DNA of 64,000 nucleotides from Diphasiastrum complanatum (taxonomy: Eukaryota; Streptophyta; Lycopodiopsida; Lycopodiales; Lycopodiaceae), in NCBI GenBank assembly GCA_029204225.1, contig CM055107.1, positions 3,662,706 through 3,726,705 on the forward strand, written 5' to 3'. Both the position numbers and the translations under genes were made by a program. The stretch's first letter is position 1. Each line of letters starts with the position of its first letter. Of this stretch, positions 2,173 through 57,592 are shown piece after piece. Below the pieces are notes generated by a model. The model worked only from the letters and a program-made list of their open reading frames with translations, was not told the DNA's origin and ran no database searches.

Positions 2173-3354
2173 TTAAGCGTGACTAAATGAAGCCAGGAGG
2201 TGGATCGTAAGTAAAAACCAGCAAAGCCAGAGATCGAGAAATCTTCCAAAAACCCCGTTGGCGGTTTGATTAGTGCTTTGGAAGGAGTCAGTACTGCCTT
2301 GGAAGCTTTGGCTAGCACCATAAAGTGATTGAGAACCCTGTATATCGTCATCAACTAGCTGCCGCTTCACTTCTCTTGGACTAAGACTGGGAAACATGAT
2401 TGCATTTTTGGCAGAAGAATGGCCTAGACCAATTAAGTGTCCTATCTCATGCACTGCTACAGACTCCAGATCCATAGCAAAGGGTGATTTTTCTGAAGTC
2501 ATATCAGCTGTCCAGTATTCAGCGTTATCGAGATGGAAACGTCCATCTTCTGGAGAGAATGAATGGGCGAGAATACCCAGCATTCCATCGAAGGGCTGCC
2601 CATCGCTGTGGTCTCCATCCGCGAACTCAATCTTAATGTCTGCGTCGTCGTAGCTGCTGATCTCTTTGAAGGTGAGAGGCACGACGGCGGACCACTGAGC
2701 GAAAGCCTCAGCGAAAGCAGTGGTTCTTGCAGCAGTGGAGACACGAGTGGTCTCGAGCGAGGGTGAGAAGGCGTAGGTGAGGCTACGCTTGCTTGTCCAA
2801 ACTGGGTTGCCAGGGAAGAAGGAGTAATGTTTGATTCCAGTTGTGATCTGTGTCTTCTTTCGGTCGTTGATATCAAAAAAGCTTTCCAGAACATCTGCGC
2901 GGCCACAGCGTGGCTGGATGAGCTGATACAGTGTGGGTAGATCTAATATTCCCGTGATGGGCAATCCAAACCACTGTTGGTAGAGCCTTATTGCTGCCTC
3001 AACGGCATCGTCGAAGTCTGCACTAGCAATCATCCCTTCGGGGAGATCCAGATAGCCAAACTGTGCAAAGTAAAGCTTCAGATGTGCTATGGCGTCGCTT
3101 GAATATCCCTTCGTGGCGTTGATAAGGGACTTGAAGTCGGACCATACTCCTGCTTCTAGATTCAGAAACTGCAAGGGGTCAAGATTAATCGGAAACATGA
3201 ATGATTTTGAAGCAGCTTGATCTGTAGATCCTTCAACACGCATTACTTGAAAGAAAAGAGCCTGAGCCATGAACCAATAAAGGCTCACAAAAACGAAGCC
3301 ACAGCTATAGATATGTTTTACACGACACCCCCGCATGATAAAATGTGACTTCAT
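2173..3354 (-). CDS. Matrix metalloproteinase (plant MMP, peptidase M10A)
   Basis: Single-exon ORF of 393 aa with an ATG start. A hydrophobic N-terminus (about residues 14-38) suggests a secretion signal. A peptidoglycan-binding-like prodomain (about 70-147) leads to the cysteine switch PRCGRADV (C150), whose cysteine holds the zymogen inactive by binding the zinc. The catalytic domain (about 165-345) has the zinc site HEIGHLIGLGH (H302, E303, H306, H312) and the Met-turn methionine M320. A hydrophobic C-terminus (about 368-393) after a Ser/Thr/Gln-rich linker fits a GPI-anchor signal, as in many plant MMPs. Length and lack of introns match the family. It is expected to cleave extracellular or cell-surface proteins. 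TATA-like TATATA stretches lie near 3658 and 3690 upstream. No frame damage is seen. It is the only complete unbroken host gene in the left half. Confidence 0.95.
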   Translation of the reverse strand: MKSHFIMRGCRVKHIYSCGFVFVSLYWFMAQALFFQVMRVEGSTDQAASKSFMFPINLDPLQFLNLEAGVWSDFKSLINATKGYSSDAIAHLKLYFAQFGYLDLPEGMIASADFDDAVEAAIRLYQQWFGLPITGILDLPTLYQLIQPRCGRADVLESFFDINDRKKTQITTGIKHYSFFPGNPVWTSKRSLTYAFSPSLETTRVSTAARTTAFAEAFAQWSAVVPLTFKEISSYDDADIKIEFADGDHSDGQPFDGMLGILAHSFSPEDGRFHLDNAEYWTADMTSEKSPFAMDLESVAVHEIGHLIGLGHSSAKNAIMFPSLSPREVKRQLVDDDIQGSQSLYGASQSFQGSTDSFQSTNQTANGVFGRFLDLWLCWFLLTIHLLASFSHA

Positions 3355-4000
3355 TACAAGCTATCATGAAAATTTTGTTAAGCAAGCAATGCAAATTGTG
3401 AACGTGTAAATCAGAATTTTTTGTACAATCGGATGAAAAGACACACGATCTTTTGTATCATCCAACAGTCAGCTCGTGGATAGCTGAGGTGCTGCGTGAG
3501 AAGATACAGACGTGAGTGAAACGCGTTGTGACTAGCTCCAAAGTAGGCTCAGTTTATTATACTATGGGCTTCTGAAAGCTCGCACAAAACAATCAAGCAA
3601 TAGGAGTTAGCTTTACCTACGGCAATGACAAAGCTAAAACGAGTAACTAGACTAGGTTATATAGTGAATATGGATATATGATGTACTATATACATAAAGT
3701 ACAAAGGAAGCGGGTTACTTGTTTGTGTGTGTGTGTGTGTGTGTGTTTGTTGTGTTGTGCTGTGGGAAGAGGTAACTTATCTGCTTAACAACCTAAGAAG
3801 AAACTGCACGTGATGGAGGTAAAAAAACTCTAGTGTTCTTGTGCTTGACTACAATTTGAGCTAGAAGCTTTGTAAGATTATTCCCTTAGATAAAGATAAG
3901 CTTAACTACTAGATTTATCAATAAGTATGCCTTATTCAATGCACCCAAATGTCATTTTCGAGTCATATTTACATTTTTGTTTTAGTCTACCTAGTTTTCA

Positions 4001-6734: not shown

Positions 6735-6847
<113 letters not shown>

Positions 6848-8639: not shown

Positions 8640-9358
8640 AGAAAGTATCTTAACAAGTATCTATGAGACTTTAAATGTGTCAACTTGTCTCTTCCTGAGA
8701 AAGAAAGTTCTTACACTCAAAATGAGCAAGGCACCTCAGTCAGTGACCATTTGAACAAGTTCAAGCAGTTGCTGAATCAACTTGATGCAATAGGTTCCCC
8801 TATTTCTGAAGAAGACTCAGCAATTTCTCTTATCGCCAATCTTCCATCCTCCTACGACAACCTAGTATTGCTCTTGAGCAATACTTCTGCTCTATCACTC
8901 CAAAAGCTGACAGCAAGCCTATTGCAAAAAAAGAAGTCAGGAGAAAAAGCTTATCCACAACGAGTACCAAGTCAGTGGCACTATACTCTAATAAGCAACA
9001 GTCCAATAAGAAGAATTTCAAGGACAAGAAAATGAAGGCAGCGGAGCAGCCAGATTCAACGCCACAACAACAACAACAGCATAGACAACAACAAACTCTT
9101 ATGTAGATTCTGCAAAAGATCTACTCACGACATCGAGGATTGTCGCATTCGCAAGCACAACGCAACGAGGAAAAGATGCAGTAGCACCAAGAAGGAGGTT
9201 CTGACTCTGTCAGAAATTTCCAAGAAGATGAGAAGGCACTGATGGTACAAGACCAACCAAGCAAAGATACCTGTGAATGGTCTCTCGATTCAGGTGCTTC
9301 ATAGCACATGATACCATGTAAGAACCTATTTTCTACTCTTACAGCAACGGAATCAAAG
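8640..9358 (+). mobile_element. Copia family 1: gag-protease, left half
   Basis: The gag frame (8685-9035; DHLNKFKQLLNQLDAIG and IANLPSSYDNLV) shifts into a nucleocapsid knuckle CRFCKRSTHDIEDC near 9110 and then the protease active-site region WSLDSGAS, followed by a TAG and HMIPCKNLF. Reading stops abruptly at 9358, where the TIR element begins. It continues in frame at 18651. Related copies lie at 20.3-21.0 kb and 43.1-44.9 kb. Confidence 0.85.
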
Positions 9359-9393
9359 CATTAGAGGAGTTCTCAATATCAAAAAGACCCTTT
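9359..9393 (+). repeat. Left terminal inverted repeat (35 bp)
   Basis: Begins CATTAGAGGAGTTCTC and ends in CCCTTT. It is the exact reverse complement of 18616-18650. Confidence 0.97.
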
Positions 9394-9782
9394 GTAAAGA
9401 TACTTTTATATTTTTTCTTTAGTTTCGACCGTCACCAGGCCCAATCAAAATGCACAGATTTGAAATATACGTAACGTAGTTCAAATTAACTAAAAAATAA
9501 AAATGCACTATAGAAAACTTTGAAATTTGTGTCCGGGCAGCATGGACGTATCCCATTGGTTTCTTCTTCCTGTCCGACACGTGCTAATCTGTCCGACGTC
9601 AATACCTCAAGTTAAATTTACTTTACTATGCTGGTTAGAATAATGAAATTTTCTAACTATACTAGTTATAGTTATAGAAACATAGTATATACAATTACAT
9701 AAAATATGGTATACGTAGTGACTGTGACTATGTTAAATTAAAATTAAAAAAACATATCAGAGAGATTTTTGGCGCCCAAGCT

Positions 9783-11132
9783 TTGAAAATAGCAATGGCA
9801 AGGAGACCCAGATCGACAATCGATTCTGTGATTCTTTACAATGAGAAAGATGAAGCTGATAACTGGAAGCCAACAAAATATACGAAAAACTCATGGGTAT
9901 TGCTGCATCCATCATCAAAGGGCAATTTTCGACAAAAGAACAGAACAAAAATGACTTACAAATCTTATTAGAAAGCAAAAAATTTGGAGTTTAAGACTAC
10001 CCCGGGAAGTCAATCGATATCAGAAGTCTTAGTGCAACATGTATATATACATTCAAAAATCAAAGTACATGATATCAATCCTCATGATCATCAAAAATGT
10101 AATTGTCAGTATATCAAAACATATGCACTCTACAACAATTGTAGGTGATTTCCTTTATTGATGCTCTTCAGATTATGATTTAAATGCTTCAACATTGTTT
10201 TTTTCTTTCAGATTTATATCCATCATGCATAAGTGAATGGGAGCCCGGACAATCACTTGTAGGAATATTAGACGTGATTCACTCTGATGTTGGAAAGCTG
10301 CAATACACTTGCAGATTGTGGTATCTATTTTTATGAATCTTTATATGCGCCACAAACAGATGGAGGTTTTGGCAAGCTCGAAGCAATTCCATTGCCTAGT
10401 TTTCAAAGTGATGAGTGGCCTGCTCCTGACAACATTGTTTATGAATCCTTGAGATGCAAGCTACTCATTGATATTAAAAATGCTATGAAGATAAGCACAG
10501 GCTCGAAAATTGTTCACCTAAGTTGGTTTATCTCATTGCATACATTTGTTGATTTTTTCTCGAGTGCTAGTGTTCGTAGGACACCAACTTTATTTGTTTG
10601 CAAGGATTTGTCAGATCTCATGGATCAAGGCTGGGATAGTAAAACAAATAATGACATAGAATGCACGATTAAAAAGACCTCAATGATCTTTCGTTATCAT
10701 ATCGAAAAGCAAATGCTCAGTCTCACATTTAGCTACAAGAGATACAAGAAAAATGAAGGTACATGGCTACCACTGGATCAAGACTTTGAACTAAATGGTC
10801 ACACAAACCGAATGGAGATAAGCATTATCTACAATGAGGAATATTTGATTATGGTTGAGGTGGAAGAGCACTGGAAGCTTGATTTTATCAGAACAGAGCT
10901 CATGTTATTACAAACCAATCTACCAACATATTTCAGATTTATCATCAACGGAAGACTCGTAAGTACTTTATGTTTATTGCCATTTCAAAATAGAACAAAA
11001 TAATAGAAAATGTCATCATTTACAATTGCACATTCACTGATATTTGCCATGTCACAGATGCGAAAAAGACAGGAGCTGATAACGTGCTGCAAAGATCTAC
11101 CTACAACAATCACCATTGTGGGAGAACAATAG
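9783..11132 (+). pseudogene. Element gene A: protein with C-terminal ubiquitin-like fold
   Basis: Three exons: 9783-10140, 10212-10958, 11058-11132. Exon 1 (first ATG 9783, another at 9795) includes NSWVLLHPSSKGNFRQK and a CxC motif, KCNCQYI. A TAG at 9969-9971 stands where the second copy (58.4-59.0 kb) has tryptophan. Exon 2 has LVGILDVIHSDVGKLQY; then, relative to that copy, 20 bases are missing at about 10307, shifting the frame into LADCGIYFYESLYAP. From about 10812 the protein looks ubiquitin-like: MEISIIY, YLIMVEVEE, a helix KLDFIRTELMLLQ, FRFIINGRLM and TITIVG, in the order and spacing of a beta-grasp fold. It ends VGEQ, not a Gly-Gly processing site. The middle is unrecognised. The family is real (two diverged copies), but this copy is broken. 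Confidence 0.65.
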
Positions 11133-11327
11133 TTTCAAATAAACTTTAGTAAAAATCTGTGTATACACTCTTTCATTCAGTAAATGAAAGCCCAAGTTGG
11201 ACATCTATACATGTATTTTGTGCTCCCAACTTCATAAACTGGAGCAGCATTTGATATATCAATGTATATTTTTCTATGAAGTCTATACATGTATTTTTGT
11301 TCTATGCTATCTATATTTTTTCTGATC

Positions 11328-13031
11328 TTAATTTAGTACAACAACATCATCCTTTGCACCATCATCAATAACAGGAGGCTGAAGCCTTGCCCTAACCAGT
11401 ATACTCAAGATAATTTCTTGTCTAAATCTTTACACCTGGCTTGATGTGTACTCAGGAAGTGTAAACTGCAAAATAGAACATTCATGCATTAGTAATGGCC
11501 AATAACAACACCAGAATAGAAAACTAATCATGATTCCAAAATAAGAATAAGAAAGATGAACCACTCAAAAAAACAACTTGGCATTGTACAATGTGTACCA
11601 CCCACAGCTGAATGAATCATTTTGCTGGGGTGACTGCAAAATAATTCAGCACACAAGAAATCAATTATGAAACAGAATGAATTAGATTGAAAATATTTCA
11701 TTAGAATACTTATTTCAAAATGCTATTAAGAAAGACAGAGTTTACTTCCAAGCTGACGATCTGCCAGTCCACGGAATGGGGAACGTCTGTAGGAATATAT
11801 TTACTTAGATATGGAATGTATATATCTACATCCTTATGCGTATTTCTCGCCGAATTCATCTTGATACAAAAACATTTAATAATATTGTTTACAGATCTCT
11901 TAATAGAGATCAGGTTTAAACTCCAGTGGTCACTGCAAAATAAGATTGAAATTTCTTTAGTTGCAATTCTGAGAACTATTTTCATTGACAATGCCAATGT
12001 TAAAGCATAAAACAGCAAGAAGCATTTGATATAACTTAATTCGTATGATAAGGTATGAGCAGATACTTTGTTGCTGGTGTGAATCCACTTGTCAGACACT
12101 GTGACAATGTGTCATTGTTCTCCTTGAAGGCCTGAACCAGGAAGTTACTCTACACCAGCAACTCATTTGATGAATCTCTTGCAATGTCATATTGCAAGAG
12201 TGTAAGCCCGGACTCTATCACAGGATCACTGATAGAAGCCCGTCTGTCTTTGAGATCCAGGCAATCTAGAACTCTAAAATTAATACTAAAATCAAGTTCA
12301 TCTAGTCTAAAACAAAAAGGAGTACCAATTGTATCTATAGCATCCAATATGTCTTTCTCAAATTTAAGATAATCATCCGAATCTATATATGTATAAAAAT
12401 TGGGAGGAGGAGGAGGTGGTGGATGTGTAGTATCTACAACAATTATAGGAGTATCCAAAACAGAGGTAGCTATATTTACAGCATTATCTACAATGGATTC
12501 TGGGATAGGCTTCACTGAATCTGAAGGGTTAGGCTTCGCTTTCTTAGGAGCACACTTGGGGGTTGTCTGCTTCCTAGGACGCTTCGTAGGAAGATTAGTC
12601 CTATCTACAGGAGTTGGTCTAGGAGTAGCAGGCTGAGATACATGTAACCTACAGTACCTATCCCTCATTCTCATCAGAAGCTGAGAATCCTTGGGCATTA
12701 TGGTAACCCTCTTGGTATGGATGGCAAGCAAAAAAGAATCCTCAAAAAAAAGGCAAATATAATCTTCAGCAGCCTCCTGAAGGCACTGAAGAGCACTCGG
12801 TGTGAATCTAACGTGTTGTCTGAGATCATTTCTTGTTATGTTCCAGACAGCACGATAGAATGGAGCTCTTGGGATCAACAGAGTTGTTGACCTCTGATAC
12901 TTGCGTATCTTATAGAGCCACTTGCTGCGGTTGTGCGTTCTAGGTCTAACAGGTGGTGTGATGGCAACCGCAGGAGATGAGGATGAGCCAAGAGAGAAGA
13001 AGTCCCTCCTTGTCTGCATTCTCCTATCCAT
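11328..13031 (-). pseudogene. Element gene B: H3-like histone fold fused to ULP1/C48 protease
   Basis: Exons 13031-12067, 11932-11746, 11633-11562 and 11465-11328; reading phases agree at every junction. Residues 38-125 are an H3 fold: IRKYQRSTTLLI (alphaN), FTPSALQCLQEAAEDY (alpha2) and AIHTKRVTIMPKDSQL (alpha3). Loop 1 is one residue longer than canonical H3, as in CENH3, and the N-tail lacks ARTKQTARKS. A basic KRPRK/PKKAK segment (150-165) and a poly-Pro run follow. After a TAG (12150-12152) the frame stays coding (NFLVQAFKENNDTL) into exon 2 with NDHWSLNLISIKR and YIPYLSKYIP, and exon 3 with SPQQNDSFSCGWYTLYNAK. These give the His, Gln and Cys of ULP1-type SUMO proteases; the catalytic Asp is not evident. 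TGA in exon 3 and TAA in exon 4 also interrupt. Roughly 470 aa. Confidence 0.82.
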
Positions 13032-13339
13032 GGGCGTGAACTATGTGATAGCGGACTTGTGCGTGAAGGTTAGGATGAGAAGGGAGGGATGATAAAGAAC
13101 TCGCAGAGGACCGCTATGTACGGACACAATGTATGGTATATCGGACCTATGCGAGCTGAATATCAGAGAGAACGATTAGATTTGAGGAAAGACGCACAAG
13201 CGTGATATGGGGTGACACGTAGGCAGACGTATCAGACCTGTGCGCATGGAAGGCAGTAGGAGGAATTTCAATTGTGAAGGGTGCACACAAATGCGAAAAA
13301 AAAGTGAAAAAAAATTCATCAAATTTGTGATTTTATATC

Positions 13340-13625
13340 GGGGTTCGCACGTGTGAAAGAACGTCCTGTCACGCGTGTGGGAGTTGTACGGACAAATGCG
13401 AGAGTGACATGTGTCACCCTGTCACATTACACGTGTGGAATTTGTACGATCGAATGCGAGAGCGACACGTGTTTATGAGCAATCGAATAAACACGTGACA
13501 TGTGTCCAGGTGTCATTTCACACGTGTGCAGGTGTCATCTCACACGTGTCTGCGCTGTTGTCCAATTGAAAGTAGACACGTGTCCTAAGTCCATTGACCA
13601 CACGTGCAAAAATTTAGTATAAATG
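13340..13625. promoter_or_regulatory. Divergent promoter with eight CACGTG boxes
   Basis: CACGTG hexamers start at about 13348, 13430, 13466, 13492, 13521, 13543, 13577 and 13601, mostly extended to CACGTGT or ACACGTG. In plants this G-box/ABRE core is bound by bZIP and bHLH factors. A TATAAA at 13618-13623 points toward gene C, and gene B starts at 13031 on the other side. The cluster is the only such one I see in the window. Confidence 0.75.
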
Positions 13626-13850
13626 GCACAAAAACCAAATAATTTTTTACCTTTTCCGTTCTTGAAATTCGCGACATATCGTTTTTGTGCACGCTCATTG
13701 CTGTCTGTTTGCTTGCAACTATACCTACTCGTGCACAAGTGCAATATTCTGTATCTGTTTGCCGTACATATCCATCTTCTGCGCCATTTTGATAGTTAGT
13801 TTTGGTTCAGTTCTCCCGCACGCACAAGTGTGATATTCACGTTACTGCCA

Positions 13851-15361
13851 TGGCCTCTTCCTCATCATCCTCACGAGAATCAGGCTTGAATTCATTTTTG
13901 AGTGAATTTGGGATTACTGAAAACCTAGACTACTTCCACAGTCTATTCAGGCCATATCTACATGTTTTCAGGACTGCACATCCAAATTCTGACATATTTT
14001 ATGAACATTATGTCTGATTCAGAGATATAATTAGAAAGCATGTTTTCTCCATAGGTCCACTCCAGTAAATGCATTGTACTGATCTTGTTCGTTTCTTCCC
14101 AGCTTTTAGACATAGACTGGATAGAATGTTCACCAAATTGTTTGATCTTTTCAAAAGTAGTTCTATGTGTCCGTATTGCAACAAGAAATGTCGATTGGTT
14201 GAATATCAGAGTGGTTTCATACTTTTTCTGTTAGTTCAGATCCCAAATGATGATGAAGTTCCTATTGCTGACCCTTCTTTTGCACCCTCCTCTGTTTAGT
14301 CAGCCATTAAGGATATCAGTCACTTTCTTATACTCTTGATAAAGAAAGTGACTTCATTGATGTAAATACTGATGTTCTGCGGGATTCTTTCATTGGCCAA
14401 AATACATCTGATGATGAATCCAAATCTATGGAGGATTTGAAATGTCTTTTCAATTTTTCTATATACTATATTAATGACGATGTATATTTTACTACTGCTG
14501 ATTTATGTAAATTTTTTTACTATCGTGAGGACGAGGTTCTATGTTTATTATCCGGCACAATTTCCAAATTCTCCGACTTTTAGATTTTGAGACAGATGAC
14601 CTTGTTGCTAGTATTGATTTTGATGATGAGGAGGGTCTTATGACCGGTGAAAAATGCCTGAATAAGACTTTATCAAATATAGTTGAGAATGGGAGAGGCA
14701 GACCATCCGATGAAGAATTCACGGCATTTCAATCCTAGATGGGCTTCCCTCGTCCATCATTAATGCACTTCACTAATGATTCCACTTCAGTACGTGGTCA
14801 TTATATTGATCATCCTGATCTGGTTGCTGCTGATGATGAAGAATGTGTAAGTATTTAATCTTCCTTGCATTTGAATATTTTCAATCACTGAATGTGTTTT
14901 TGCTAACATATTTCCTATTGTAGGATGCTCTCATAATAGATGATTTTGCTGCGAGACGAGGTGGTTTCAGACAACACGCATCCTCGTTCCAGAGGGACAG
15001 TGGACTGGGCCACTATCTTAGGCATGTCTTGAAGAATGAGATCTGTATTGCTCATTCCAAGCTGAGCCCAGTCGGGGAGAGTCTTATAATGGCAGTTAAA
15101 GCTTTATCATTTTATCTAGGAGGACATAAATTTGTTAAGACAAATAAGATCATTTTTGTCAAAAGATCTTATGTGTTGAACATTTTAGGCTTTACTGATG
15201 GGAATGTTCCTTTAAGGAGCTCCCATTATTTATTGCATTCCACTTATATTGAGCTTAGTGGAAATAAGGATAATGCACATCTATTAGATGCATACGCTAG
15301 CAGAGAATTTCTTCATGACAATACTACCATAGAATCTGATACAAGATCTGATGATGAATAG
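13851..15361 (+). pseudogene. Element gene C: unknown protein with CxxC..C motif
   Basis: The probable start ATG at 13851 gives a Ser-rich N-terminus (MASSSSSSRESGLNSFLSEF). The frame stays coding-like through TGA and TAA stops near 14015 and 14066 to a possible zinc motif CPYCNKKC (about 14168). After a TAG near 14298, coding moves to another frame (about 14308-14580, acidic, LDKESDFIDVNTDVL) and again at about 14585 (DFETDDLVASIDFDDEEG), with a TAG at about 14736. Exon 1 ends at 14846 (GT donor). Exon 2 (14924-15361) is clean: DALIIDDFAARRGGF, SPVGESLIMAVKALSFYLGG, and an acidic C-terminus ending RSDDE. I do not recognise a family. It lies between the divergent promoter and the convergent 3' end of gene D. 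Several stops are C-to-T explainable (CGA, CAA, CAG); the frame moves are real indels or unseen introns. Confidence 0.6.
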
Positions 15362-15481
15362 TTGACACTTTGTATTTTGGTATAATACAATCAATACATT
15401 TACATTGGGTATTTCTCCTCTCTTGTTCAATGAATTTGCAAAGCAATTTTAAACATGTCATGATGATCTTCTACTCAGCAA

Positions 15482-18126
15482 TCATCTAATTTTCTCTTCC
15501 TGTATGAACTTGCATGCTTTTCTAAACTTGTTGTTTTGTGTGGACTTTGTTATATGTCGAATCTGAACTCTGCAGTAGAACCACTGAAACAATTGACAAA
15601 TGTAGTTTCGTTTTTCATTGGTTCCTCCATGTTGTGTATTTCTATGAAATGATGCTCGTGCTTGCCAGTGTGACTTCTCCATCCCTTGTGATGACCATAC
15701 ACTCAAGCTTCCATATGTATTTGCAAAAAATGTTGTATGATCTCTTAGTATGTGCTGCATATGTCAAAATCGTAATGTTAGTCTTATGTTTGGATCTAAA
15801 TATATATGAAAATTTGAAAGCATTTTGAAAATTTTATACTAACCATGTAATGAGTGATGTGATCTTCTCCCCATGATTTTGATATTGCATTAACAAACTC
15901 GACACAAGTCCTTTGGACAGCTTTCTTATCAATATCAGAGTATTTTTCTTTTCTTAAAATAGCAATCATACTATCAAGCTTTTTCCATACAACAACTTTT
16001 AGTACTCTGGTTTTGTCGTCTTTCTCGAAGTCCTGAGTGGCAGCAATAATATCTGTCCAGACTGAGTGTTGAATATTAGAAGCCTTACCAGTATGATTTG
16101 ATAGAAAACGACGTGCTTTTGCTCCTCCTATGCTTGGCTTAGTTGGCATGTTCCCATTCTATCTTGAAAGCTTTTCATCTTTTTGAATTTTGATATGTCC
16201 TTTATGGAGTCTAGCTTTTGATAAAACATCTTCTAATCGAGAGATAGTTTCCTTTGCTAATGATGTTGGCTTAGTATTCCAAGCAAAAACTATATGAAGA
16301 TAAATGATCTTTTCTATTAATCTAACTTCTGCATGAAGAGTGCAAACATGCACATTTTTTAAGGGGGTAGGCAGCACAGGCTTCCAGTTTGGATCTGCAT
16401 ATTCTCTAGTAATTCCTGTACTCCTAATTACATCTTTTGCCATTTTCATGTAGTACAAACAAGGGTGTTTTGATGTAGCACCGTGAGAGACATTATACAT
16501 ACATTTCAATGTTTTCAAATCATCTACTAAGTGCCATTTAACATTGAAGTCTCCAACTCTTGGAACGTTGAGAAGTCCTCCATCCATATGGTCCTTGATG
16601 ATCCTAGGATAAGATGTCCTTGAGAATATCCATGATAATATATCATGATCCTCTTTCAGCACCTGTCCAAAGAATTAATTAGACTTAGTTTACAATGTAT
16701 TAACACTATTCAATAAATGTAATGTAATAATGAGGCTAATGACCTGAAACGCTGCCAACCACCATATATCATTTTCTGACTGGACATTGAATTTGAAATC
16801 TTCTTGGTTCTCTGTTTGTGATAGAGCGCCATTCATGAGAGTTATACTAACCCTTTCCATCTTCTGTCCTTTCACAATTTCTGACTCATCTAACTTAAGT
16901 ACTATGATTATTTTGCCATTCACCTTTTCATAGGTTATATCATAGAATGTGACGATGTATCTCAGCAAGTAATTTAGATCAACAAATAAATTGTTTGATG
17001 AATTATAGGATATCGATCTTCCATCAGTTTCATACACCTCCTCAATATGAAATGGAGTTCTAGTGATCTTATGCATACCTATGTTTAATGTATCCCTCTC
17101 TTTCTTCAAGTGATATGTCCTAGGGATTGGGACTTTTCTAATTTGAACTTGCTTAAAAGCTTCTCTAATTAGTTTAAATATTGTTGTATATGCTTCCCTA
17201 CTAATACCTGCAAAATCACAAGCACCCTGAACTATAGTCTTATCTAAAATATTTTGAATGTCCACCATCAAAGACTCTGCTATTTTACACTTTACATTTG
17301 AAATCCTATTGTTCATCATGATATGCTCAGTGGATTTGCAAGTCAATATTGTGCCCAATGACATTCCTAGTGAAGCATTGTCTTTAATATTCCGAGGAGC
17401 TACTAATGCAGATCTGCAAAAAAAATAGATAGTTAACAGAATATCACCATAGCTGAAATTAAATCCAAATGTCATTGAAAAACTTACAAAATTCAAAATA
17501 TGCTTACTTGAATGCACGGATCCTTCTATTTCGATAACCTTTTTTTGAAAGCGTTTGAATATCCTTGCAACTTTGTTGCTTTCGCTTCTTACTTTTAGCC
17601 TTCTTCTTTACCAAATCCACATCCTTCAATAATTGTAAGTTTTTAATACGAATAGACTATAAGACTGATTGCATTTGCTCTAGTTCTGATTTGATATTGA
17701 TTGTTATCTTCTGTAATGATTCATTTTTTTTTTAAGTTGTTCATTTTCTTCTAACGTCTTTTGGAGATGACAATCTCTATTCTGACAATAAGAGGATATC
17801 CGAACTAACTCACCTTCTAAAAAGTGAACTTTATTCATATAAAGTTGTTTTCCATGGTTTTGCAATCTTTCATAATATCCTAGTAATCCATTGTGCCCAT
17901 TGCATATCCATGTAACTAAATGAGTTATTGAAGAGAATGTGGGATGTGTCCAAGTGCTTGGATCTTGTGGATATAATGTTCCATCTGTCCACAAATTCAC
18001 GTTTTTCTTTCCTTCTGCCCTGTAACGAGAACGATCTTCAACAGATATTTGAACTCCTTTGCCTCCTCTTCGCTGCAAAGGTGCCAAATCAATAGGGATA
18101 TCCACATGTAGATGATATAATGTCAT
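15482..18126 (-). pseudogene. Element gene D: probable RNase H-fold transposase
   Basis: Four exons: 18126-17508, 17413-16744, 16662-15844 and 15754-15482, with GT-AG borders and matching phases, about 790 aa. The N-terminal part has NVNLWTDGTLYPQDPSTW, then a coiled coil (LEENEQLKKK) and a basic stretch. The middle holds IIIVLKLDESEIVKG (about 16880), then HLVDDLKTLKC (about 16510), SKHPCLYY (about 16460) and TLHAEVRLIEK (about 16330); the end has SVWSSQGMEKSH. This order (acidic residue, D-L-K segment, C-x2-type knuckle, later acidic residue, QGxEK) resembles large uncharacterised transposon proteins of other eukaryotes. The DDE reading is inference. Faults: one indel in a 10-base A run (17724-17733) and TAG stops at 17657-17659 and 16159-16161. 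It is the least damaged of the element genes. Confidence 0.6.
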
Positions 18127-18615
18127 TATCAAAAAAATAATAGAGTAATCAATTGCATCAAAGTACTACGACCAGATTCTATGAAGCAGAACAAAATACT
18201 CATCTTTGATTATATTATATACTATGTATGATCAATCCAATCTCCATGCTTGTATGCTTGATTCAAATTTGGAAATTCCGCTCATTTTTTCATTCCAATA
18301 GGTAGTTGGCGCTCATATTTCCATTCTCATGGAAGGAATGCATATGTAAACATTTTGCAATTTCTCCTGATTCGAATTTGGGGATGGCGGTCATATTCTA
18401 GATCCAGTGAAAATATTGCCCTTTTCGTAACCAATGGAGGGAATATTTTTGAATTTAGTCAAGTTATATTGCGAACCGTTAACAGTTCTTAACTGTGACT
18501 ATAGACGGTTAGATCATTAGGAGTTGGGGAGGCCTTGGGAGTGGTGTGGGCAAGCAAATAAACAATATTGTTTTATTTATTTTGATATTTTTGTATATCC
18601 TACATGGCATTCCTT

Positions 18616-18650
18616 AAAGGGTCTTTTTGATATTGAGAACTCCTCTAATG
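18616..18650 (-). repeat. Right terminal inverted repeat (35 bp)
   Basis: Exact reverse complement of 9359-9393, ending CTCCTCTAATG. Copia coding sequence resumes at 18651. Confidence 0.97.
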
Positions 18651-22520: not shown

Positions 22521-23738
22521 TTAATGCATGCACCTAGCAACATCATTTTCCATATGATCAAAGAAATCATTAACAACAATCTTTTCCAAGGAAGAACCTT
22601 CACCTCCATTGATGAAGTTAGCTCTTTCCTTACCTTTTGCATGCTTGCACTTGACATCAAGTCTTGCTTTCCTATTAGTAGAGAGACAAATAGGAATTGA
22701 ACCAATACCTTCAATCACACACTCACCACCATTGGCCATTTGAATTGCTTTCTTGGCTCCATCATAAGTGACCAAAGAAGTAAAAAACTTCTTGTGACTA
22801 GTCATGTGTGAACTAGCTCCACTATCAATCCACCATGAATCTTTGTCACCTACACTTGATATTAGACTTGAAGAACACATCAAAAGAGAATCACCACCAC
22901 CTAGATCCTCATCATTAGTAGTAAAGTTGATTTGCTTGCTACCTTCATCTCTTTGCTTCTTCAAACATTCATTTGCAAAATGCCCTTTGATTCCACAATA
23001 GAAGCATTTTAACTTAGACTTATCTTTCTTTTTGCCAAAAGAAGAAGTCTCACCTTGATCTTGTCCTTTAGACCACTTGCCTTTTCCTTTGCCCTTGAAC
23101 TTGCCTTTGATGAACATAGCCTCCTCTTCATAATGAGATGTCGATGTAGATCCACCTCTTCTTGATTGAAGACTATACTCCTCATTCACCAAGATCTCTT
23201 GCAAATCCACAATACTTGGCAAAGTTTTTTGAATAGCAAAACTTTGAACAAGATTAGCATGATCATCCAACAAGCCATTAAGTATAACTTGAACAAGTTC
23301 TACCTCCTTAATGCTTTCATCAATACATGCTAACTCATCATTGAATGCCTTAACCCTCAAAACAAAAGCATGAGTATTCTCTTCCTTCTTTTGAAAATTT
23401 TGAAAGATTTGCCTCCTAAGAGTAAGCACTCTTGATGTAGACTTGGATTCATAAAGCTTCTTCAAAGCTTCCCAAGCCTCCAAAGATGATGTGCACTTAC
23501 CAACTTCCTTGAGAAGTTCATTGGTAACATTCATCTTAATCATGTGTAGAGCTTTCTTTGCTCTCTTGTCATACCTCACTTTATCTTGAGGTGCTTGAGG
23601 CCTCTCCTCCACACCTGCAACAATCTCCATCAACTCATTCATCTCCAATAAGGACTCCATCCTCACCTTCCAAGTACAATAGTTGATTGAGGTAAGCCTA
23701 TCATTGCTCTCCAGCATGAATCCACCACTTGTAGCCAT
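22521..23738 (-). CDS. Copia family 2 Gag-protease ORF
   Basis: Uninterrupted 405-aa ORF from ATG. It has the copia gag opening (NYCTWKVRMESLL), the conserved gag core (EAWEALKKLYESKS, LNGLLDDHANLVQSFA), a basic Gly/Lys stretch, a CCHC knuckle CFYCGIKGHFANEC and the protease motif WWIDSGASSHM. Protease is expected to cut the polyprotein inside the particle. The C-terminal 60 residues leave the copia pattern, and no integrase follows. The unbroken frame suggests a young insertion. Confidence 0.9.
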   Translation of the reverse strand: MATSGGFMLESNDRLTSINYCTWKVRMESLLEMNELMEIVAGVEERPQAPQDKVRYDKRAKKALHMIKMNVTNELLKEVGKCTSSLEAWEALKKLYESKSTSRVLTLRRQIFQNFQKKEENTHAFVLRVKAFNDELACIDESIKEVELVQVILNGLLDDHANLVQSFAIQKTLPSIVDLQEILVNEEYSLQSRRGGSTSTSHYEEEAMFIKGKFKGKGKGKWSKGQDQGETSSFGKKKDKSKLKCFYCGIKGHFANECLKKQRDEGSKQINFTTNDEDLGGGDSLLMCSSSLISSVGDKDSWWIDSGASSHMTSHKKFFTSLVTYDGAKKAIQMANGGECVIEGIGSIPICLSTNRKARLDVKCKHAKGKERANFINGGEGSSLEKIVVNDFFDHMENDVARCMH

Positions 23739-24029
23739 GTTGGAGTGACCTGATCTTCTCTTTCAACCTGTTCCAATGCACAAAGCACTCTCTTGAATGT
23801 CAACAAATGAACTCAAGAAGATATCACAAAGATATGGAACCTCTCACATCTCTTCTGGCACTTCTAACTAGAAAATCAACACATAGAATAGTGAAATCTT
23901 GATCAACCTATAATCTATCCTCAATCTAATGATTCTTCCCACTTCCTAAGATTGAAACACACTCAAATGAAGTTCAGCAACCTCACAAACTAGAGATCCA
24001 ATCAAAAGTCTTGGGATCGTAAAGCTATC

Positions 24030-38652: not shown

Positions 38653-39593
<941 letters not shown>

Positions 39594-48225: not shown

Positions 48226-51200
48226 GATGACTCCAAGACTGCTCCTCTATTTCTTGAACAGACCTTTGTCTAAGGCCTTTGTGAAAATGTCAGCAACCAT
48301 CTCCTTCATTCCAATGAAAGTAGTATGCAGCTTCTTCTTCTCGATCAGATCCCTTATCAAGTGGTACTTGATTGCAACGTGTTTCGTCCTTGAGTGAAAC
48401 ACGGGATCCTTCTTCAGGTGTATTGTGGATGTATTATCCATCTACAAAATCAGAGGTTCATTCCTTGTTTTGCCCAGTTTGTCAAGGAACTGTTTGAGCC
48501 AAGTGATTTCATTGGCCATCTTTGCTGCTACTACGTACTCTGCTTCGCAAGATGATTGAGCCACGATGGCCCATTTTTTGTTGACCTAGAGAATTGCTGC
48601 TCCTGATGTGATGGTACATCCTCTTGAGACACTTTTAAAGTCGTCCTTGAGAGATGTCCAGCTAGCATCACTGTAGGAAAGCAGCTGGAACCCTGCATCA
48701 CGAGAATAATACAATCCAAAATCCTTCGTTAATTGAAGGTATTGCAAGATTCGTTTCGCAATCTTCCAATGAGTTGAGCCTGGATTCGTACTGAAATGGC
48801 TCATCCTGAACACGGCATATGCAATGTCAGGGCATGTGTTACTTGCAAGATACATTAGTGACCCGATCAGCTTCTTGTATGGTGTATGCTCCATCAATTC
48901 TTTTTCTTCTTCAGTCTTCGAACAATCCTCATTCATCAGGATTGTTCCTGCAAGCATTGGAGTATTTGCTCATTTGCAATTCACCATCCTGAAATCTTCT
49001 AGGATTTTTTAGGTATATCTGGACTGATGAAGGTACAATTTTCTTTCGTCATAGTCTCTGTCAATCTGTAAGCCAAGATAACATCTCGCTTCTCCTAGGT
49101 CTGCAATCTCGCAATGTTTCGAGATGTCATACTTCACCTCAGCAATAAGTTCTTCACTTTTGCAGAGTATCAGGGGGCCATCCGCATATACAACTACAAT
49201 GATGATCTTCCCATTTGTAATTCTTACATAAACGTTGGAATCAACTATTAGTGGCTTAAATCCCAAGGATTTTAGGGCTTGATCTTTCTTCTTATACCAT
49301 TGTTTCACTAATTGCTTTCAGACCGTAGATACTCCTGTGCATTCTACATTGATAAGTAGGAAGTGAATTCGAAATGTAGCCTGGAGGTTGATCCATGTAG
49401 ACCTCTTCATCTAGCTCACCATGTAAAAAGGCTGTCATTTCATCCACGATGTGAATCCTGAGATCATAAGCGGCTGCATATGCAAACAGTAGGCGTAGGG
49501 ACAAATATTTCATGACAAGAGAGAAAGTCTCAACATAGTCGATACCATATCTCTGAGAAAAACCTTTCGCTACAAGTCTGGCCTTATACTTTGAAATATT
49601 TCCATTCGGTCCATACTTCAGCTTGTATACCCACTTGCATTGTACAGTCTTTCAGTTATATGGTAATGGCTGCAACGTCCATACCTCATTCTTCTTCATA
49701 GATTCCATCTCCTCATTCATGGCTTGGATCGATTTGTCCTTTTCTGGAAATTCAATTGCTTCCTCGAATGTTTGTGGTTCTTCAGTGAATCTACAAAACT
49801 CTTCCGATGTAGAAGTTGCACTGCCTGGTACAAATCTTGTTGGCGCTCTTCGTTCTCTTGTCGATATTCTAGGAGATCCTTTTGGTACCACAATGCTCTT
49901 GCCTTTATCTGTTCTGCTAGATTCGGAACCATTTCGATTTACAGGTGTTGTAGCAGTAGGCTGGCTTGCAAATCTTTCTTCGTCTGATTCGTCGCTCGAA
50001 TGAGGTGCGACTCGAACATCTTCATCTGAGTGTTCGTCCTATGCTCCCTTTGTCACAGTTGGTAGGTCATAGTATTATCTTCCAAGGACTTCATAACTAA
50101 TAGGATCATTATTGGCCATTGTTCTGCTCTCATCGAATTTGACGTCTCTGACTGTCTTCATTGTGTTTGTCTCTGGCATATAGACTTTGTAGTATGACGA
50201 ACGATTGTCATATCCTACAAGATATCCTTGTTCTGCTTTCTCATCAAGCTTCTTTCGAATCTTGTCAAGAACATGTGCATATGCTGCACAGCCAAAAATT
50301 CGAATATGAGTCGGATTGGGTTTTCTACCCCACCATAATTTGTGTGGTGTTGTATGAGGAACACCAGATTTTCCTGTCCTATTCTGAATGTAAGCAGCTA
50401 TAGCTACTGCTTCAGCCCACAGCACTCTTGGAGCCTTCGAATAGGCCATCATGCATCTGGCGGCTTCTATGAGAGTCATGTTCTTTCTTTCTACAACACC
50501 GTTGTGTTGCGGTGTATAAGATGCAGTCCTTTTGTGAATGATTTCTTGATCATTGCAGAAATTAATGAATCGGTTTGAGATCTATTCTCCACCCCGATCT
50601 GTTCTGATCTGCTTCACCTTGTTTCCTGTGTATCTTTCTGCCCAGTTCACATACTCTATGAATTTGTGAAATGCATTTGATTTATTGTGAATGAAGTAGA
50701 CTCTAGAAAACCTATTATAATCATCAATAAAGGTGATATAATATTTTGAGCCTCCTATTGAGATCACGTTGAAAGGTCCATAGATGTCTGAATGTACTAG
50801 CTCCAGAATCTTTGTTGTTCTTTAGGAGTCCTTTACAAAAGGAGTACGTGACATCTTACCTTTTATACATGCATCACAGGTCATCGAATTGGTTGCATTC
50901 GAGATGCTCACCCCTGTGATTGCTCCATGATGGCTTGTTTGATACAGTTCCATTGAATTCATATGGCATAGTCTCCTGTGCCATAGAATATCTAACGAAT
51001 CATCATAAGTCTGATGTACTTGATCTGTAGATAGGCGTACCCTCAGGTGATACATGTTGCCTTTTCTTCTACCTTGTGTAATTAGTGTATTGGTGCTTGC
51101 ATCAACAACATTGCATGCTTCATCCGAGAACGTGACACACATCCCTGCATTAGCTATTCTTGCCACTGATAGCAAGTCCTGCTGCAGTGTAGGCACGAAC

Positions 51201-51307
51201 AAAATGTCTTCGAGTTGTCTGTCTTTGCCGTTTGTGTTGATCCGGAGTGTGCTGGCCCGGAGTAGCGCCCTGGTCGCGAGTAGTGGCTGAAACATCGAGT
51301 TGGGCAT
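48226..51307 (-). mobile_element. Copia family 4 polyprotein, nearly full-length, broken
   Basis: From right to left: protease end and GAG-pre-integrase (LEDILFVPTLQQDLLSVARI, DILWHRRLCHMNSMELY, CDACIKGKMSRTPF); integrase (YITFIDDYNRFSRVYFI, IRTDRGGE, YTPQHNGVVERKNMTLIEAA); linker; RT (KWVYKLKYGPNGNISKYKAR, GIDYVETFS, VYADGPLILC at the YVDD position); RNase H (YSDASWTSLKDDFKSVSRG, SSCEAEYVVAAKMANEITWL); and the end KHVAIKYHLIRDLI with ADIFTKALDKGLF. Multiple stops and shifts, and YADG in place of YVDD, indicate a dead copy. The gag side is replaced at about 51.4 kb by another element. Confidence 0.93.
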
Positions 51308-51399
51308 CGAGCTGGGACAGCGGCCCAGAGTGTGCTGGCCCAGGATGTATTAGGGAAGCGGCGGCCATGCAGGAGGGGTGGGGGGGTATTCTTACTTTC

Positions 51400-56476: not shown

Positions 56477-57592
<1,116 letters not shown>

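Follow-up and report, generated by a model that had tools for sequence, protein, structure and literature searches.

A predicted histone H3–ULP1 fusion gene in a many-copy DNA transposon of Diphasiastrum complanatum

The H3–ULP1 fusion gene

A gene whose predicted protein joins a histone H3 domain, a linker and a C48/ULP1-type protease domain was found in a DNA transposon of Diphasiastrum complanatum, and this four-exon arrangement, read from 17 aligned copies of the same genome, was conserved. The gene lies in the window, i.e., the whole 64,000-nucleotide stretch of DNA that was analyzed. The original prediction of an H3–ULP1 fusion was upheld, as the frame and splice sites were conserved among sibling copies, both domains are under purifying selection, and a second, diverged family followed the same plan. 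Chance was excluded because of the E-values, the at least 134 scored places of the H3 open reading frame (ORF) in the genome, window included (a lower bound from 9735 first-look candidates), and the second diverged family. Table 1 summarizes the features of the window copy.

Table 1. Positions of the transposon and its features in the window
Feature	Position	Strand	Description
Whole transposon copy	9359..18650		9292 bp; bounded by inverted repeat
TIR arm 1	9359..9393	+	35 nt, 100% complementary to arm 2
Gene Y	9678..11003	+	Convergent to the H3–ULP1 gene; ORFs preserved in several of the 6 copies read
Exon 4	11328..11465	-	ULP1 C-terminus; in-frame stop in window copy
Exon 3 remnant	11567..11633	-	ULP1 Gln/Cys motif QQNDSFSCG
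Exon 2	11746..11932	-	ULP1 His motif (DHW); conserved C.KMNS
Exon 1	12040..13031	-	H3-like tail, H3 core, linker, start of ULP1
H3 core	12657..12926	-	Residues 36-125; helices alphaN, alpha1, alpha2, alpha3; Pfam Histone
N-terminal tail	12927..13031	-	Residues 1-35; usual family form MDRRKQTRRDFF
CACGTGT array	13348..13606		Between the H3–ULP1 gene and divergent gene X
Gene X	13850..15361	+	Divergent; several exons; ORFs
Transposase gene	15480..18165	-	Decayed; contains introns and a stop; motifs KLDE, DLKTLKCM and H....H
TIR arm 2	18616..18650	-	35 nt, perfect inverted repeat with arm 1

Transposon carrying the gene

The H3–ULP1 gene sits in a many-copy DNA transposon. Its placement in a mobile element had been proposed before, and the terminal inverted repeats (TIRs), the transposase and the many copies bore this out. 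On comparing copies, the TIR was found to form the outer edge of homology between the window element and the others. The repeat starts with CATTAGAG (CATTAG), and its exact 35-nt form occurred 1084 times in the 1.74 Gb genome (544 and 540 by strand), while the reversed pattern, used as a control in the same genome, gave 0 copies. A 5-nt target-site duplication was found at none of eight end pairs, four of which were read from printed flanks (the window, L010/L022, L018/L027 and a MITE in L019) and four by script, each of the latter being presumed from its 8–12 kb spacing to bound a single element. One scripted pair had 3 nt common to both flanks, and L017/L026 was excluded from this count because a flank was duplicated inside the locus. 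The MITE-like element in L019 (4197–4561) was 365 bp long and carried diverged copies of the transposon's TIR.

The CACGTGT array contained 13 of the 18 matches in the window, at 8 sites, when 2.3 were expected in the whole window (both strands counted, so that palindromic sites count twice), and it was kept in L009, L010 and L011. Genes X and Y gave no Pfam match above the cut-off for the pieces scanned. Elsewhere, the window contained an open matrixin (M10) ORF with a peptidoglycan-binding-like domain on the minus strand (2173–3360), a DREPP-like ORF, copia-type gag/pol fragments (8667–9035, 22521–23762 and 50822–51349), and long runs of the TC dinucleotide, perfect or nearly so (6737–6844, 38990–39146 and 56477–56590).

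Exon structure and state of the copies

Eighteen copies were compared, including that of the window, and 17 entered the codon alignment; L020 was left out because its ULP1 exons were missing or replaced. As the window copy carries in-frame stops at two places, no longer has the splice donor at the end of exon 1 (TT, where the siblings have GT) and has a damaged exon 3, frameshifted with a 1-nt insertion and with the 3' part gone, it is a decayed pseudogene, and open copies exist in the same family. The original reading of the frame through one TAG was correct for that codon (12152–12150) but had missed the second in-frame stop, in exon 4. Similarly, the boundaries at 11932, 11746 and 11633 were retained, whereas the first junction, placed at 12067, was moved to 12040, since the siblings showed that YLLIPYHT is coding and that exon 1 ends there.

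The length of exon 1 was equal modulo 3 in 17/17 copies. Neither a stop nor a frameshift was present in six copies (L009, L013, L015, L017, L018 and L019), all with GT–AG at the three introns; the other 11 of the 17, window included, were broken. Among the six, the catalytic Cys is gone from L015, and L017 has no final stop at the usual place. Most of exon 4 was absent from L016, the N-terminus of L008 was unrelated to those of the other copies, and L011 and L012 were near-identical with matching flanks (99.8% over 1401 nt). The spliced protein predicted from L009 has 479 aa, in which Pfam recognized Histone (8e-22) and Peptidase_C48 (3e-9), with a Pro-rich linker between the two domains.

Histone H3 part

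The minus-strand ORF at 13031–12150 matched Pfam Histone at 1.5e-26 and H3 of the PDB at 1.8e-21, in agreement with the earlier assignment of residues 38–125 to the H3 alphaN–alpha3 pattern. Structure prediction also returned the H3 order of helices (33–48, 55–69, 78–105 and 113–130), in an AlphaFold model of low confidence (mean pLDDT 49), and Foldseek placed nucleosome H3 entries at the top for this low-confidence model (best E 9.9e-6). The H3 identity rests on the sequence matches and not on the structure model.

In the tails of the window's family (family 1), T6 and R8 were kept in 17/17 copies, Q5 in 16/17, R2 in 15/17 and K4 in 14/17, the window copy having M at the K4 position. The K9 position was D in 17/17 family 1 copies and L in family 2. 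No Lys was aligned at K27 in L009 or L049, the alignment of the tail being loose. From the set of modifiable tail lysines, K4, K9 and K27, the family has thus mostly kept K4 and lost K9.

An origin of the H3 part from CENH3 was considered because of LLIP, EAAED and KDF, and was rejected on the pairwise scores, which were higher for canonical H3 (references H3.1 and HTR12). The H3 tree gave no resolution between placement with canonical H3 and with CENH3, and no host CENH3 was among the opened matches, which were H3.1-like or H3.3-like genes or repeats. Origin from an endogenous virus was also rejected, as viral contigs held no related transposase and gave just two matches in the H3 search, each 28% identical.

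ULP1-like part and active site

The ULP1 domain begins within exon 1. The spliced L009 sequence scored 37.5 bits against Peptidase_C48 (E 3e-9; curated cut-off 20.7), and the three best Ulp1/SENP2 chains of the PDB matched its ULP1 part at 1.7e-4 to 7.7e-4. The catalytic His was kept in 17/17 copies, and the Gln and the Cys in 16/17 each. The usual C48 catalytic Asp was not recognizable, and two PDB alignments placed its position differently; therefore, protease activity cannot be assumed, and the predicted ULP1-like protease may be altered or dead. Within C.KMNS, the Cys and the Asn were invariant in 17/17 copies, and both were also present in family 2.

Selection on the two domains

Selection was estimated by the Nei–Gojobori method from the codon alignment of the 17 copies. 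Over all pairs, which are not independent (L011 and L012 being an example), dN/dS was 0.60 for the tail, 0.41 for the H3 core, 0.89 for the linker and 0.28 for ULP1 exons 2–4. On comparing L017, the most diverged family 1 copy, with the others, the corresponding values were 0.36, 0.13, 0.44 and 0.20. As most copies are decayed, the values should be pulled up. The codon comparison thus indicates purifying selection on both the H3 and the ULP1 domain.

Second family and other relatives

The second family was reached through a genome search with a CENH3 core, in which 150 of 5059 candidates were scored; the opened matches also included host H3.1- and H3.3-like genes. The two copies L049 and L050, starting MARTKQTVRL and MARMKQTTRL, respectively, have an H3 core, a linker and a ULP1-like part. 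In L049, read over exons 1–3 plus the third donor, which follows exon 3, introns 1 and 2 stand at places matching those of family 1. Compared with L009, its H3 was identical at 55/135 residues (41%; shuffle z 38) and its ULP1 part at 61/211 (29%; shuffle z 46). Pfam recognized the Histone domain of L049 (2e-23), and its ULP1 part on its own gave no match in Pfam or in the PDB search. One locus of this family, L055/L049, was read widely. Upstream of the gene and oriented alike, it carries a transposase of the kind found in family 1 (1e-72, 2e-36 and 9e-31), and the 1200 nt that precede the ATG contain, by raw count, 11 CACGTG.

A third H3-like repeat family (L042, L039, L051 and L047) was also observed, and the stretch that was read showed no ULP1 in it. 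An exon starting MARTKQ[TM]ARD.. accompanies a separate H3 core ORF in L042 and L039, and in L047 the H3-like repeat is joined in frame to a transposase N-terminus. No H3–ULP1 protein from other sources was found, the search giving 1 match at E<=0.1 among 4444 candidates. This match, P0007, is a protein of 391 aa with the tail MARTKQTMRK, an H3 core and a long C-terminus; it was rejected as an orthologous fusion because ULP1 was not recognizable beside its H3 part.

Transposase

Of 7237 candidates, 38 were homologues of the transposase at E<=0.1, and a profile of 28 of them gave two matches in the window (4e-86 and 1e-107, the E-values being for 24 translated frames). The C(2)C motif was nearly invariant in the alignment, H....H was present in P0008 and P0009, and the second Cys of C..C was Y in the window copy. 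A transposase of the same type lies upstream of the H3–ULP1 gene in the window, L010 and L011. It had no Pfam match, and a MULE transposase as in Kaonashi/MULE elements was not recognized; no bacterial relatives were found. The sole Pfam domain among the matches listed was DUF7794, joined to a transposase fragment in P0045 of the fern Adiantum nelumboides.

For the model of the homologue P0009 (pLDDT 69), all 12 Foldseek hits at E<=0.001 were RAG1, BbRAGL or HzTransib, and the next hit had an E of 0.27. As TM by query was low (0.23–0.37) and rmsd high (9.5–18.4) against the RAG1-like structures, the likeness is one of overall fold, and the transposase is predicted to have a RAG1-like fold. A profile search of PDB sequences with the transposase gave no RAG1 at E<=10, and no RAG2-like partner was recognized, the scanned pieces of genes X and Y giving no Pfam match above the cut-off. 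Since no CACTA structure was among the Foldseek hits of the P0009 model, the element is placed, by predicted fold and motifs, near the CMCT group (CACTA-Mirage-Chapaev-Transib) and not as Transib.

Proposed function and alternative explanations

The fusion protein is tentatively interpreted, at somewhat below an even chance, as a transposon-encoded anti-silencing factor that would work through nucleosomes and deSUMOylation. The H3 part would pair with host H4 and bring the fusion protein into nucleosomes, most likely those on or near the element, where the ULP1-like part might strip silencing proteins of SUMO or a related tag. A tail with the K4 region kept and K9 missing could not carry H3K9 methylation, and the upstream CACGTG array is a candidate control region or binding site. 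The overall effect would be anti-silencing, as in plant VANDAL elements with VANC, but by way of nucleosomes. A further-reaching proposal, possible although rather doubtful, is an element-made nucleosome in which an H3 variant proof against the K9 mark takes a SUMO protease into chromatin and maintains the element in an open state, so that at least two old lineages of RAG1-fold transposons would make a chromatin domain of their own.

It is less likely that the H3 part serves as a chromatin tether, by which the element or the transposase complex would be held on nucleosomes and integration guided or permitted, while the ULP1 part matures or stabilizes the complex by deSUMOylating the transposase. 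The transposases upstream of the gene in the three family 1 loci and in the one family 2 locus read that far agree with such a role, but no link between the fusion protein and the transposase was seen, and the flanks of the eight end pairs differ, with no shared target among them. Comparably unlikely is that the ULP1 part is a SUMO-binding module and not a working protease, so that the protein would be either a histone variant guided by SUMO or a decoy binding sumoylated silencing proteins. The unrecognizable Asp and the invariant Cys and Asn of C.KMNS would fit this role; however, the retention of His, Gln and Cys is as expected under selected catalysis, and the Asn may stand in for the Asp.

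That the H3 and ULP1 pieces are passengers without function, captured by a transposon, is very improbable: the capture of genes by transposons is well documented in plants (PMC13317346), and 11 of the 17 copies are broken, but dN/dS is below 1 in both domains, the frame of exon 1 is kept throughout, and the same fusion recurs in a second family at 29–41% identity. It is equally hard to credit that H3 and ULP1 are two adjacent genes or transcripts, because, although 7/17 copies have some Met between the H3 end and the catalytic His, these lie at differing places and 10/17 copies (3/6 of the open ones) have none, the linker frame is open across copies with in-frame length changes only, the beginning of the ULP1 part lies within exon 1, and family 2 has the same junctions.

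Transposon-encoded anti-silencing factors are already known; the combination of H3 with ULP1 did not appear in the papers searched. If the anti-silencing interpretation is true, a histone variant would have evolved inside a mobile element, and the H3–ULP1 protein might let the transposon interfere with the host's silencing of the element.

Comparison with known systems

Among the systems considered, H3 variants, including CENH3, share the H3 core and the KQT.R start of the tail with the present protein, which differs by its C-terminal ULP1 fusion and the loss of K9. Viral histones, as described in PMC9145170, likewise place a core histone on a selfish element, but the viral-contig matches to the present H3 were just 28% identical.

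The transposase resembles those of the CMCT group and RAG1 in predicted fold, C(2)C and H....H; C(2)C and H(3-4)H motifs are described as common to EnSpm, Mirage, Chapaev, Transib and RAG1 (PMC12730594). It differs from them in that a sequence profile gave no RAG1 match and a RAG2-like partner was not recognizable. Transib-like proteins, 39 in number, have already been reported in plants according to PMC9435367. Transib is described as making a 5-bp target-site duplication (PMC7204232), whereas the present element had one at 0/8 end pairs, and its TIR, starting with CATTAG, did not match the CAC-heptamer-like ends of Transib.

VANC proteins are described as binding the tandem-repeat noncoding regions of VANDAL elements and inducing loss of silent marks (PMC10398659). 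Compared by such described features, the present system would be alike in that a transposon-encoded protein acts on noncoding tandem repeats of its own family, here with a CACGTG array beside the gene, and would differ in its proposed route, namely, nucleosome entry and deSUMOylation.

ULP1-carrying transposons are known in plants (PMC13317346, PMC2528002), and Vandals carrying the Kaonashi-type ULP1 (KIU) are said to escape silencing (PMC13317346). The KIU of VANDAL/MULE elements and the CACTA-ULP of grape and rice are like the present element as plant DNA transposons with a C48/ULP1 domain, but their transposases are different, and here the ULP1 is fused to H3. The word histone is absent from the main texts of the KIU and CACTA-ULP papers (PMC13317346, PMC2528002), and no histone–ULP1 transposon was found in the open-licence literature searched. 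PMC13317346 describes the role that ULP1 plays in the transposons of plants as unknown; as the core histone fused to it here points to a definite place, namely, the nucleosome, the question of this role becomes testable.
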